Source: Winogradskyella eckloniae (GTDB lineage Bacteria > Bacteroidota > Bacteroidia > Flavobacteriales > Flavobacteriaceae). From it: 64,000 nucleotides of DNA. How positions within the stretch are numbered: position 1 is the stretch's first letter; every line of letters starts with the position of its first letter. Positions 18,040 through 53,943 of this stretch are shown one piece after another. The translations under genes were made by a program, and so were the position numbers. The stretch lies in contig NZ_JABRWP010000008.1 of assembly GCF_013249045.1 (NCBI RefSeq), forward strand, positions 62,001 to 126,000. Direction: 5' to 3'. Below the pieces are notes generated by a model. It was not told where the DNA came from, did no database searches, and saw only the letters and a list, made by a program, of their open reading frames with translations.

Positions 18040-18864
18040 ATGTATAAGAACCTAATTATAACAATGTCATTTATTCTAGTAAGTGTATATGGCTTTGCTC
18101 AAAACGATATCAATAGCTATCAATTTATCATTGTTCCGAATTCATATGAGTTTTCTAAATCAGACGATCAGTATCAATTAAATTCGTTAACTAAATTTTT
18201 ATTTAATAAATATGGATTTGAAGCGTATTTTGTTGATGAAATTCCAGAGCATTTAAAAAGCGAATTATGTAAAGGGCTAAAGGTTGAGGTGTCTAATGAA
18301 AAAAGTGGCATGTTTAAGACCAAATTAGAAATGATGCTCAAAGATTGTTATGATGCTGTAGTAATGACGTCTAAAGTAGGCGAATCTCGTTTAAAGACGT
18401 ATGATAAAGCGTACGTACAAGCGTTGAGAGAAGCTTTTGAAACTTTTCAAAATATGGACTATGAGTATTCAGGAGATGTTCAAAATAAAGAAGAAGATGT
18501 TGTAATGACAGAGACAAAAGTTGTTGTTGCTGAGACTAAAACTAAAGCTTCTGAAGTAGATAAAAAAGAACCAGCTATGGAAGGCACACTGAAGTCTGAT
18601 ACCAAAATAGAGGAGCAGGTAGCGACTTCAAATAAATCAGCGACTTTTAAAAATGAAAAATACTATGCACAGGAGATTTCTAATGGATTTCAATTGGTAA
18701 ATTCAGAGCCAAGGGTTGTGATGATTCTTCTAAATACTGCAGCAGAGCATGTATTTCTGGTAAAAGGAAAAAGTGCAATTGTATTTAAACAAGATGGTTT
18801 TTGGTATTATTCTGAAAATAATGGAGAGCTCAAAGAGCAAAAGTCTATCAATATTAAATTCTAA
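18040..18864 (+). CDS. Secreted protein of unknown function
   Basis: The 274-residue product has a signal peptide ending near YGFAQ (about residue 21). A conserved-looking globular region follows (YQFIIVPNSYEFSKSDDQY, LNSLTKFLFNKYGFEAYFVD), then a Lys/Glu/Thr-rich linker (about 145-200) and a small beta-rich C-terminal part (AEHVFLVKGKSAIVFKQDG). I recognise no enzyme motif. It follows the YjjG gene by 10 bp and may share its transcript. Confidence 0.65.
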   Translation: MYKNLIITMSFILVSVYGFAQNDINSYQFIIVPNSYEFSKSDDQYQLNSLTKFLFNKYGFEAYFVDEIPEHLKSELCKGLKVEVSNEKSGMFKTKLEMMLKDCYDAVVMTSKVGESRLKTYDKAYVQALREAFETFQNMDYEYSGDVQNKEEDVVMTETKVVVAETKTKASEVDKKEPAMEGTLKSDTKIEEQVATSNKSATFKNEKYYAQEISNGFQLVNSEPRVVMILLNTAAEHVFLVKGKSAIVFKQDGFWYYSENNGELKEQKSINIKF

Positions 18865-45544: not shown

Positions 45545-45577
45545 AAAAAGCTTCATATTTATTATGGAGCTTTTTTT
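45545..45577 (+). terminator. Terminator of gltA
   Basis: AAAAAGCTTCAT (45545-45556) pairs with ATGGAGCTTTTT (45564-45575), with one G-T pair, and the T-run continues to 45577. It ends only 12 bp before the next start codon. Confidence 0.85.
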
Positions 45578-48963: not shown

Positions 48964-50907
48964 TTATTCTTCCTCTTCCGTTTTTGAGATAACGGTGTTT
49001 TCAAATGCACGTTTACCAAATATTTTCTCTAGATTGTCTTTAAAAATCACTTCTTTATCTAGAAGAACTTCTGCTAGTTCTGTTAATTTATCTTTATTGT
49101 TTTCTAATAAATTAATAGCACGTTGATATTGCTCTTCAATGATATCTGAAATTTCCTTATCAATAAGCTCTGCTGTTTTCTCACTGTATGGTTTAGTAAA
49201 ACCGTATTCAGACTGTCCAGAAGAGTCGTAATAAGTTAGGTTACCTACTTTGTCACTTAGTCCATAAACCGTAACCATAGCTCTTGCTTGCTTAGTTACT
49301 TTTTCTAAATCACTTAAGGCTCCTGTAGATATTTTATCAAAAATTACTTTCTCAGCTGCTCGTCCACCAAGTGCTGCACACATTTCGTCTAACATTTGCT
49401 CTGGTCGCACAATTAAACGTTCTTCTGGTAAATACCAAGCAGCTCCTAAAGATCGTCCTCTAGGCACTATAGTAACTTTAACCAATGGTGCTGCATGTTC
49501 TAGCATCCAGCTTACAGTGGCATGACCAGCTTCATGGAATGCAACAGCTCTTTTTTCTGAAGGTGTTATAATTTTATTTTTCTTTTCTAATCCACCAATA
49601 ATTCTATCAACAGCGTCTAAGAAGTCTTGTTTGTTAACTGCTTTTTTGCCTTTTCTTGCTGCAATTAATGCTGCTTCGTTACACACATTGGCGATATCTG
49701 CACCAGAAAATCCTGGTGTTTGTTTTGATAAGAAATCTATATCTAATGTCTCTTCCTTTTTTAATGGACGTAAATGCACTTCAAAAATTTCTTTACGCTC
49801 TCTTACATCTGGAAGGTCTACATAAATCTGTCTATCAAAACGTCCTGCTCTCATCAAGGCACTATCTAAAACGTCTGCTCTGTTTGTGGCAGCTAATACA
49901 ATAACGTTTGTATTGGTACCAAAACCATCCATTTCTGTTAGTAATTGATTAAGTGTGTTTTCTCGTTCATCATTAGAGCCAGACATATTATTTTTGCCTC
50001 TTGCTCTACCAATAGCATCAATTTCATCAATAAATATTATCGATGGTGATTTTTCTTTGGCTTGTTTAAATAAATCTCTTACTCTAGAGGCTCCAACACC
50101 AACAAACATTTCTACAAAATCCGAACCAGATAGTGAAAAGAATGGCACTTTTGCCTCACCTGCCACTGCTTTTGCTAATAACGTTTTACCTGTACCAGGA
50201 GGTCCTACAAGTAAAGCTCCTTTAGGTATTTTACCACCTAATGCTGTATATTTTTCTGGAAATTTTAAGAAATCTACAATCTCTTGAACTTCCTCTTTTG
50301 CACCTTCTAAACCTGCAACGTCTTTAAACGTAGTTTTGGTGTCTGATTTTTCATCAAAAAGTTTAGCTTTAGATTTACCAATATTAAAAATCTGGCCACC
50401 AGCACCACCTCCTCCTCCAGAGGACATGCGTCGCATAATAAAGATCCATACACCAATAATAAGAACAAACGGAAGGAGTGAGATTAAAATGTCTCCCCAA
50501 GCATTATTTTCTATATCAGCATCTCTAGTAGTTGATAGTCCTTTTTCTGCAATGATGGTATCAATTCTATTCTCAAAGTTCTGAAGATCACCAAATTTTA
50601 AGGTGTAATTTGCTTCATTTCCTGTAGGAAGGAAACTTTTAGACTTAGAATTTTTATGCACTTCTTTTTCTAATGCAGCCTTAGTAAGATAAACTTTTGC
50701 TGTTTTAGTGTTACTAATTACAATCACTTCTTTTACATCACCATCTTCTAAATAGCTTATAAAATCTGAAGTTTTAATTTCCTTAGTATTTTGAAAAGCG
50801 TTCCCTCCAAAAAATTGTATGCCTAAAAATATGGCGATTACTATTCCATAAATCCAATACGGACTTAGTTTTGGTTTCTTGCTTGTGTTTTTATTGTCTT
50901 TTGCCAT
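48964..50907 (-). CDS. ftsH: ATP-dependent zinc metalloprotease FtsH
   Basis: The 647-residue inner-membrane protease has two membrane helices (about 16-34 and 142-162). The AAA+ core shows Walker A GPPGTGKTLLAKAVAG, Walker B SIIFIDEIDAIG and the second region of homology MRAGRFDRQIYVDLPD. The zinc site is HEAGH (about 448-452). A glycine-rich stretch (SSGGGGGAGG) follows TM2. It degrades misfolded membrane proteins and is 17 bp after rsfS. Confidence 0.97.
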   Translation of the reverse strand: MAKDNKNTSKKPKLSPYWIYGIVIAIFLGIQFFGGNAFQNTKEIKTSDFISYLEDGDVKEVIVISNTKTAKVYLTKAALEKEVHKNSKSKSFLPTGNEANYTLKFGDLQNFENRIDTIIAEKGLSTTRDADIENNAWGDILISLLPFVLIIGVWIFIMRRMSSGGGGGAGGQIFNIGKSKAKLFDEKSDTKTTFKDVAGLEGAKEEVQEIVDFLKFPEKYTALGGKIPKGALLVGPPGTGKTLLAKAVAGEAKVPFFSLSGSDFVEMFVGVGASRVRDLFKQAKEKSPSIIFIDEIDAIGRARGKNNMSGSNDERENTLNQLLTEMDGFGTNTNVIVLAATNRADVLDSALMRAGRFDRQIYVDLPDVRERKEIFEVHLRPLKKEETLDIDFLSKQTPGFSGADIANVCNEAALIAARKGKKAVNKQDFLDAVDRIIGGLEKKNKIITPSEKRAVAFHEAGHATVSWMLEHAAPLVKVTIVPRGRSLGAAWYLPEERLIVRPEQMLDEMCAALGGRAAEKVIFDKISTGALSDLEKVTKQARAMVTVYGLSDKVGNLTYYDSSGQSEYGFTKPYSEKTAELIDKEISDIIEEQYQRAINLLENNKDKLTELAEVLLDKEVIFKDNLEKIFGKRAFENTVISKTEEEE

Positions 50908-51389: not shown

Positions 51390-52121
51390 ATGTATATAAT
51401 CAAACTTAATGCCATTGACTCTACAAATTCCTATTTAAAAGGGTTGGTATCTGTTGCTATACCTAAAGATTTCACGGTTGTGGTAACAGAATCACAAACT
51501 GATGGCAGAGGGCAAAGAGGTGCAAAATGGCACGCGCAATCGGGTAAGAATCTAACTGCTAGCGTGTTTAAGCGCTTATCACTGTATCCTGTTAGCGATC
51601 AATTTTATATAAGTATGGTTGTTTCATTGTCAATTTACAAGGCCTTAAGTGGTTTTAATATTCCGAAATTAAGTATTAAATGGCCTAACGACATTTTGTC
51701 AGCAGACACCAAAATTTGTGGTGTATTAATAGAAAATGTCATAAAAAAAAATAATATACAAGGTTCTATTATAGGTTTTGGGCTTAATGTTAACCAAAAA
51801 GAATTTTATAACCTACCTAAGGCATCGTCTATGAGTTTAATTACAGGGCATGTTTATAATAAGGATGAAATTTTGTCGGAAGTACTAAAACAACTTCAAA
51901 TTTATTTTAAACTTTTAGCGTCTAAGAATTTTGCTGAAATTAAAACAGAATATGAAGACCTTTTGTTCAGAAAAAATAAACCTTCAACGTTTCAAACTAA
52001 TGAATGTACTCAATTTTCAGGTATCATTCAGGGTGTTACAGAAAGTGGTCAGTTATGTGTTTGGACAGAAGATGATATTATTAAAACTTTTGATCTAAAA
52101 GAAGTAAAACTGCTATATTAA
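51390..52121 (+). CDS. birA: Biotin-[acetyl-CoA carboxylase] ligase, monofunctional
   Basis: The 243-residue ligase attaches biotin to the carboxylase carrier protein. It shows AIDSTNSYLKGL, the biotinyl-AMP loop ESQTDGRGQRGAKWHAQSGK (about 31-50), SIKWPNDILSADTKICGVLI and GFGLNVNQ. It lacks the N-terminal helix-turn-helix of E. coli BirA, so it cannot act as a repressor. Its stop lies in the loop of a hairpin shared with the convergent gene. Confidence 0.93.
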   Translation: MYIIKLNAIDSTNSYLKGLVSVAIPKDFTVVVTESQTDGRGQRGAKWHAQSGKNLTASVFKRLSLYPVSDQFYISMVVSLSIYKALSGFNIPKLSIKWPNDILSADTKICGVLIENVIKKNNIQGSIIGFGLNVNQKEFYNLPKASSMSLITGHVYNKDEILSEVLKQLQIYFKLLASKNFAEIKTEYEDLLFRKNKPSTFQTNECTQFSGIIQGVTESGQLCVWTEDDIIKTFDLKEVKLLY

Positions 52122-52132
52122 ATAGCAGTTTT
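52106..52132. terminator. Bidirectional terminator holding both stop codons in its loop
   Basis: AAAACTGCTAT (52106-52116) is perfectly complementary to ATAGCAGTTTT (52122-52132) with the loop ATTAA (52117-52121). The birA stop (TAA 52119-52121) and the minus-strand stop (52118-52120) both lie in the loop, and both strands read into TTTT. The last codons of both genes form the stem. Confidence 0.85.
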
Positions 52133-52513
52133 CATATTTGTCACTAAGGTTTCAATAAATTTATTAATAGGCCCTTTTATCATCATAGCCATCATAGCAT
52201 TAAATTCGCCTTCAAAATTTAGTTTTACATCGGTTTTGCCTTCTCCAGTTTCTGTAATGTCTGCAATTAAAGCAAAATCTAATTTTCCGCCTGCAGCACC
52301 TAATACGATTTTATTATGTGGTATTGCTTCCTTTTTTTTCAGTACAATTTCTGGCATTCCTTTTAATGCAAAAAGAAATTTGTCATCTTCTAATACTTCA
52401 AATTTACTTATGTTTTCTGGCATTAAACTTTCAAAATTTTTAACATCAGATAGAAAGTTAAACGTGTCTTCTGTAGATTTATTTAAGGTAACTTTTGGTG
52501 ATTCTAATTTCAT
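52118..52513 (-). CDS. SRPBCC-fold protein
   Basis: The 131-residue protein begins MKLESPKVTLNKSTEDTFNF, followed by LSDVKNFESLMPENI, the usual start of a START/polyketide-cyclase-like lipid-binding fold. The C-terminal helix is GPINKFIETLVTNM. Ligand and role are unknown. It overlaps the convergent birA by 4 bp within a shared terminator and lies downstream of pyrE on the same strand after an 85-bp gap. Confidence 0.78.
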   Translation of the reverse strand: MKLESPKVTLNKSTEDTFNFLSDVKNFESLMPENISKFEVLEDDKFLFALKGMPEIVLKKKEAIPHNKIVLGAAGGKLDFALIADITETGEGKTDVKLNFEGEFNAMMAMMIKGPINKFIETLVTNMKTAI

Positions 52514-53361: not shown

Positions 53362-53943
53362 ATGCACACTATTTATGTAGGTGATAAACCTATTATTTTA
53401 ACTTCTGAGATACAGCAAGAGACGGATTTTAAGTCATTTCTTTTAAAATCTTTTAACATTGGTAAGGTGATTAAGACTATGAATAAAACAGATTTACAAG
53501 CCGTACATTTAATTCATAAAAATCCGGATAAGCTTTTAAAGAAATTTTTAAAACTTTTGCCAAATGTTGTTGCTGGTGGTGGAAAGGTGTATAATGCTAA
53601 AAATGAAATTCTTTTTATTTATAGGAATGATAAATGGGATTTACCAAAAGGAAAAGCAGAACGAAAAGAAACCATAGAACAAACTGCAATGAGAGAGGTA
53701 GAAGAGGAGACAGGTATAGAGGGCTTATCTATTACTAAACCATTACCAACGACATACCATATTTTTAAACGTAATGGGAAACATAAAATTAAAGTAACTT
53801 ACTGGTTTGAAATGAAAACAGAATTTGAAGGAAAACTTTACCCTCAAATTAAAGAAGGCATTACTAAAGTAGAATGGTTAGATGAACAGGCATCTATAAA
53901 AGCCTTAGAAAATAGCTATGCTAATATTAAGGTTTTGGTTTAA
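53362..53943 (+). CDS. Nudix hydrolase
   Basis: The 193-residue protein has a 70-residue N-terminal extension of unknown role and then a Nudix domain. The Nudix box GKAERKETIEQTAMREVEEE followed by TG (about 96-117) fits Gx5Ex7REUxEExGU exactly. WDLPKGKAERKE resembles diadenosine-polyphosphate and related hydrolases, but the substrate cannot be named. Its stop is 4 bp from the convergent gene. Confidence 0.88.
   Translation: MHTIYVGDKPIILTSEIQQETDFKSFLLKSFNIGKVIKTMNKTDLQAVHLIHKNPDKLLKKFLKLLPNVVAGGGKVYNAKNEILFIYRNDKWDLPKGKAERKETIEQTAMREVEEETGIEGLSITKPLPTTYHIFKRNGKHKIKVTYWFEMKTEFEGKLYPQIKEGITKVEWLDEQASIKALENSYANIKVLV

Follow-up and report, generated by a model that had tools for sequence, protein, structure and literature searches.

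Two convergent genes end in the loop of one hairpin

Can a single hairpin, assembled from the last codons of two convergent genes and carrying both of their stop codons in its loop, end the transcripts of both genes, or is it a coincidence of two coding tails? The question is raised by a locus in a 64,000-nucleotide stretch of the Winogradskyella eckloniae genome (3.69 Mb), the whole of which we refer to as the window. An earlier note on this DNA had described a perfect 11-bp hairpin at window positions 52106-52132, and its coordinates, stem and loop all proved exact in the sequence (Table 1): the inverted repeat is perfect over 11 bp, contains 3 G-C pairs and encloses a loop of 5 nt. Equally borne out by the sequence and the open reading frames was the statement that the two stop codons overlap by two bases within the loop ATTAA; these two bases are shared in register, and the genes themselves share four (TTAA, 52118-52121). 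The stem does, as had been claimed, encode the ends of both proteins. Besides K-L-L of birA, the 5' arm holds the last base of a Val and the first base of a Tyr codon of that gene, and the 3' arm encodes K-T-A plus two bases of an Ile codon of the SRPBCC-like protein on the - strand. The hairpin core comprises 7 bp (CTGCTAT/ATAGCAG) and is followed by TTTT on each strand.

Table 1. Genes and hairpin elements of the locus, and the two further stems around both stop codons found elsewhere in the genome
Feature	Sequence	Position	Strand	Remarks
birA, biotin protein ligase, 243 aa		51390..52121	+	ORF; Pfam PF03099, E 3.1e-19, residues 9-133; stop TAA 52119-52121
SRPBCC/CoxG-like gene (tentative name), 131 aa, convergent to birA		52118..52513	-	ORF; Pfam CoxG; stop is the complement of TTA at 52118-52120
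5' arm	AAAACTGCTAT	52106-52116	read on +	core pairs 52110-52116; encodes birA K-L-L
Loop, 5 nt	ATTAA	52117-52121		both stops: TAA (+) 52119-52121, TAA (-) 52120-52118
3' arm	ATAGCAGTTTT	52122-52132	read on +	core pairs 52122-52128
T-rich tail beyond core	TTTTCATA	52129-52136	+	5 T of 8; antisense to Met-Lys region of SRPBCC-like gene
T-rich tail beyond core	TTTTACTT	52102-52109	-	6 T of 8; antisense to birA Glu-Val-Lys region
tsaB/mscS-like convergent pair	AAAAAGAAG/CTTCTTTTT	L227:2616		9-bp stem, 2 G-C pairs, around both stops
DUF389-like/ABC ATPase convergent pair		L177:11280		7-bp stem, 2 G-C pairs, around both stops

A homologue of birA was present in 60/60 genus genomes searched by protein. 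The catalytic domain was the sole Pfam match of the ligase, with no match to an N-terminal DNA-binding domain, and such a protein is presumably not a repressor of the E. coli type. The convergent gene matched Pfam CoxG with E 0.00084 and 19.5 bits, and because this score lies under the curated cut-off of 22.2 the family name SRPBCC/CoxG is tentative; the named loci nearest to this gene were mostly from Winogradskyella.

When folded as RNA, the 27 nt reached -11.3 kcal/mol on the + strand and -11.7 kcal/mol on the - strand (z -6.1 and -5.8; 0/200 shuffles folding equally well on either strand), and with 50 nt of context -11.9 on + (z -3.3, 2/200 shuffles equal) and -12.8 on - (z -4.2, 0/200). 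A hairpin that is stable on both strands thus lies between convergent genes, with birA on + and the SRPBCC-like gene on -. A consensus terminator scan also scored it as terminator-like on both strands, which by itself tells little because the scan returned 10 sites in 15 kb versus 6.4 +/- 2.5 in shuffles; the nearest other terminator-like sites were at 49700-49719 and 53839-53860. The scan additionally picked up, at 45545-45575 on the + strand, a 13-pair hairpin followed by TTATTTTTAC, which as a terminator candidate looks more usual. A known RNA family was rejected as the identity of the birA hairpin, since an Rfam search of the window gave 0 matches at the gathering threshold. A repeated element or protein-binding site was rejected as well, the sequence (allowing up to 3 mismatches) occurring at one place each in 3/68 genus genomes.

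Both T-rich tails derive from coding sequence, as by-products of Lys, Glu and Met codons: at the position of the + tail, Met was found in 78/85 and Lys in 49/85 of the junctions that have the 4-nt overlap described below. Stable as it is on both strands, the hairpin could alternatively act chiefly to protect mRNA 3' ends or to mark a processing site, with polymerase being released elsewhere or by Rho. Where relatives have no hairpin at this junction, their transcripts must indeed end by other means. However, no result obtained here favours such a role in particular and the T-rich tails are as expected of an intrinsic terminator, if a weak one, and we consider this explanation very unlikely.

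The stop overlap is conserved among relatives, the hairpin is not

Junctions between the two genes were collected from 60 genus genomes searched by protein, 68 searched by DNA, 80 named loci and 68 family loci, the latter being 28 + 40 drawn from the 224 genomes that gave a match, with closer ones given more weight. The genus genome L061 was left out, as its stretch held no SRPBCC-like match. The 4-nt overlap was present in 85/110 distinct junctions of the first three sets (52/67 within the genus) and in 52/68 family loci, some species of which were already in the other sets; pooling of distinct junctions gave 131/170. TTAA, which in the window forms a convergent 4-nt stop overlap of the type YTAR on opposite strands, was the tetramer in 49 of the 85, followed by CTAA (26), TTAG (7) and CTAG (3). 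The last residue of birA was Tyr in 83/85 overlapping junctions, and the overlap may recur because the strand opposite TAY followed by TAR always carries a stop. Such 4-nt overlaps are not rare, as they also occur in 12/177 convergent pairs of the genome sample introduced below.

We scored a hairpin as terminator-like if it had at least 7 bp, 3 G-C pairs and a T-rich tail within ~60 nt. On the + strand this was the case for 3/131 overlapping junctions, 2 of those 3 having it on the - strand too, and among the 39 junctions without the 4-nt overlap there was 1 with such a hairpin, on both strands. The three overlapping cases are the window junction, L083/L172 (one identical junction) and L034 (7 bp). 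We therefore rejected the idea that the hairpin is conserved along with the gene pair: 128/131 overlapping junctions have no terminator-like hairpin, which means that the pair does not need one. Retention in relatives, which would be supportive of a terminator rather than defining given that terminators turn over, was not seen, at 3/131 junctions. The conserved feature is the 4-nt stop overlap and not the hairpin; the former is old and ordinary, the latter rare among relatives.

The junction of L172, the second genome of the genus with this feature, reads AAAACTGCTGT-ATTAA-ACAGCAGTTTT and is again a perfect 11-bp hairpin, differing from the window by one paired A-T to G-C change. Its birA is 66% identical to that of the window, and its tree distance to the window (0.75) is close to the genus median (0.74), which implies either an independent gain or the loss of the hairpin in most lineages. 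In L003, the closest relative by protein search (birA 79%), the stem, as judged by eye, has one mismatch and one G-T pair. W. litoriviva (L063) has the overlap with a stem of no more than 5 bp. In another genus relative, L030, birA and the SRPBCC-like gene lie 88 nt apart; the birA tail there forms the 5' side of a hairpin of 15 bp (AAAGAGGTGCAATTA/TAATTGCACCTCTTT), whose 3' arm opens with the birA stop.

The hairpin is unusual for these two protein tails

Upon synonymous recoding of both protein tails, 2/4000 sequences were equally stable and 1/4000 had an 11-bp stem, but part of this stability excess is composition because the null draws on genome-wide codon usage and the arm carries CTG, which is rare in the sampled genes at 2.5% of Leu codons. 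When arms were exchanged between species, 24/15121 combinations matched the stability of the window. The hairpin is thus unusual for the two tails that it is made of, although the site was selected because it stood out. Across the 85 junctions, the recoding test gave a mean z of -1.29, which we did not count as selection because the codon usage of the window genome was applied to all species and because CTG is frequent among the terminal Leu codons of birA even where the overlap is missing. Specifically, the last two Leu codons of birA (window 52110-52115) were CTG in 16/85 and 10/79 overlapping junctions and in 3/25 and 6/23 junctions without the overlap; CTG made up 3.7% of 2204 internal Leu codons.

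A hairpin without function, its inverted repeat being a coincidence of two coding tails, would be accounted for as follows: the conserved tail L-L-Y*, facing what is often K-T-A-I/V*, is written in AT-rich codons, the arms are hence near-complementary, and drift perfects some of them. The rarity of terminator-like hairpins among the overlapping junctions is in line with this explanation, as are the coding origin of both T-rich tails, the lack of covariation between the core pairs of the window (see next section) and the finding that the left arm of the window hairpin forms an equally stable fold with right arms taken from L011, L047 and L070. However, the swap rate predicts ~0.2 junctions of window stability per 131, while two were seen, the pre-selected window junction and that of L172, and these differ by one paired change. 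Moreover, stems around both stops are over-represented at abutting junctions in this genome (see below). Weighing both sides, we regard the absence of any function as possible, though unlikely.

Evidence for and against co-evolution of the arms

If the two arms had evolved together, true arms might pair better than arms swapped between species. Over the 85 junctions true arms gave -5.07 vs -4.36 for swapped ones, with 0/300 swaps as low, and the same held within the genus (52 junctions, -5.21 vs -4.40, 0/200 as low) and for all 131 junctions (-4.62 vs -4.15, 0/200). For the 79 junctions outside the genus, the values were -4.24 vs -4.03, with 11/200 swaps as low. Contrasts between sister junctions stood at 23 to 12 (7 zero, p 0.023) in one comparison and at 35 to 23 (7 zero; Wilcoxon p 0.067, sign p 0.15) on the tree, where genus pairs contributed 14 to 6 (p 0.029) and other pairs 21 to 17 (p 0.56). 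At the two other hairpin junctions of the genome, the sister contrasts were 9 to 2 and 9 to 2. We nevertheless discounted the sister test as biased, because it came out at 11 to 1 for C10:111209, a control junction picked because it has no stem here (30 loci, giving 25 distinct junctions); the global swap of this control was flat, with 35/150 swaps as low. Perhaps this bias comes from both arms sharing the G+C content of their genome. A second control, at window position 18864 (30 loci with 16 distinct junctions), gave 4 to 2 (2 zero) in the sister test and 75/150 swaps as low in the global one. A further junction considered as a control was left aside as poorly conserved, any match to it being present in 14/68 genomes.

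Counting pairs in the register of the window over the 85 junctions, we found no covariation for the 7 core pairs (3.36 vs 3.33 for swapped arms, p 0.34) and 4.98 vs 4.80 (p 0.047) for all 11 pairs, and shifted registers showed no excess of pairs over the same junctions. Overall, the results point both ways on co-evolution of the arms.

Gene ends and tight convergent pairs elsewhere in the genome

For comparison with the rest of the genome we used a sample of 1,606,149 bases (43.5%), in which a simple in-house coding-score caller placed 1388 genes. Terminator-like hairpins were found at 129/1387 gene ends, with cores beginning a median of 26 nt past the stop, and at a distance of at least 20 nt in 80% of the 129. 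Six extend into coding sequence, four of them overlapping the gene end in other ways and two having the stop in the loop; these two are the window hairpin viewed from its two sides, and there is no other such case in the sample. Given an entry threshold of 5, the tails of the 129 contain 7 or 8 T of 8 in 98 cases and 5 or 6 in 31, so that the tails of the window (5 and 6) are poorer than those of 98/129 terminator-like gene ends. Its 3 G-C pairs compare with a median of 4.

The earlier note had also asked whether other convergent pairs share this design, for which there is weak support. Among 177 convergent pairs in the sample, 42 are tight enough for both stops to fit in a 12-nt loop, and within these 42 only the window hairpin passes the terminator criteria. 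Two weaker stems (9 and 7 bp; Table 1) nevertheless surround both stops at other junctions, whose gene names (tsaB/mscS-like and DUF389-like/ABC) were assigned by eye from the translations; both are longer-looped than the window stem. Stems of at least 7 bp around both stops thus occur in 3/42 junctions vs 0.13 for swapped arms (1/400 swaps reaches three), the fair count being 2/41 because the window case was pre-selected, and stems of at least 5 bp in 6 vs 1.49 (0/400 swaps).

In the genus, the tsaB/mscS pair has a 4-nt overlap in 26/30 loci and a stem of at least 6 bp around both stops in 18/29 distinct junctions (30 loci). The corresponding stem of the DUF389/ABC pair was present in 4/25 junctions, or in 9/30 with a further-reaching loop; its relatives include the paired arm changes AAGAGAA/TTCTCTT, GAGGAAA/TTTCCTC and AAAGCGAA/TTCGCTTT, and many have no stem. 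At both junctions, which were chosen for their stems, true arms paired better than swapped ones (0/150 swaps as low), and the arms are near-complementary because the tails are rich in purine-rich Lys, Arg or Glu codons. The stems at other abutting junctions could therefore be taken as a hint, at most, of a common design.

A candidate terminator, probably in competition with ribosomes

The earlier note had proposed a bidirectional terminator at which translation and termination are coupled by ribosomes arriving at either stop. The hairpin, the T-rich tails and the convergent genes fit the first half of this proposal, and we think it rather probable that the locus is a lineage-specific, leaky bidirectional intrinsic terminator made of two coding tails, a candidate that we put forward from its sequence features. 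The second half fared differently. An intrinsic terminator requires its hairpin to fold while the T-rich stretch is being transcribed, and a ribosome has a footprint of ~30 nt. With the stop inside the hairpin, a terminating ribosome is expected to melt it.

On the terminator reading, an old convergent pair would overlap by four bases (YTAR), the terminal Tyr codon of birA plus TAR giving the stop of the opposite strand, and in the window lineage the tail codons would have become inverted repeats by chance or by tuning, turning the overlap into a hairpin loop. When polymerase runs ahead of its ribosome, the hairpin would fold and termination would follow a few nt on, just beyond the stop, so that the ended message would retain its stop codon. 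Short complementary 3' ends would result, and antisense RNA would be kept from the opposite gene. A ribosome that has reached the stop would sit over the hairpin and melt it, making termination partial and weaker when translation keeps pace. Termination, the stronger of the two strands and the antagonism by ribosomes are what we infer from the locus.

A stronger version of this reading holds that, in compact genomes such as these, convergent genes lacking an intergenic gap have had the terminator written by selection into both coding tails via synonymous codons, its loop being made of the two stops, which makes it ribosome-sensitive on each strand: it would fire if polymerase outruns the ribosome and be silenced if translation keeps up. 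We find this improbable.

That ribosomes at either stop would instead help, for example by permitting termination once translation is complete, is suggested by the exact placement of the stops in the loop on both strands. Yet most terminator-like hairpins in this genome are found well beyond the stop (median 26 nt, as noted above) and the arrangement is not conserved. Furthermore, in E. coli a ribosome at a stop near a terminator represses termination, and uncoupling translation abolished this repression (PMC4824070). Coupling in the sense of ribosomes aiding termination runs against these observations, and we give it hardly any credence.

If the hairpin does terminate, the locus would be a compact natural case in which ribosome and hairpin compete, at a single site and on both strands, for the same nucleotides, and it would illustrate how a conserved stop overlap can turn into a hairpin through synonymous changes. 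If it does not, it cautions that where convergent genes end, an inverted repeat with T-rich tails may be no more than a by-product of coding.

Comparison with known systems

In the part of the literature covered, we found no description of a terminator whose loop contains the stops of two convergent genes. The components of the arrangement, however, each have precedents. Lillo and Krakauer (2007) list the convergent overlaps CTAA, TTAA, CTAG and TTAG, with short overlaps of length 4 being prominent (PMC2174442). The TTAA of the window joins both stops as listed there, but differs in that it doubles as a hairpin loop. In the ribosome-repressed E. coli system, a stop-to-hairpin distance of >27 nt was needed for full termination (PMC4824070). 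The window stop resembles that situation in being nearer to its hairpin than this distance, and departs from it in lying inside the loop, on both strands at once.

Bidirectional intrinsic terminators between convergent genes are described for Zymomonas mobilis and, cited there, for E. coli (PMC7566282, which cites Ju et al. 2019). Like these, the window has a single hairpin, A-rich on its 5' side and T-rich on its 3' side, that could serve both strands. Unlike them, it has no intergenic space, its hairpin and tails being coding and its stops lying in the loop, and the candidate is a weak one. The window hairpin hence looks like a neat if modest case of an established type of terminator, a bidirectional intrinsic-terminator candidate that appears to have been fitted into a stop overlap of a class already described.
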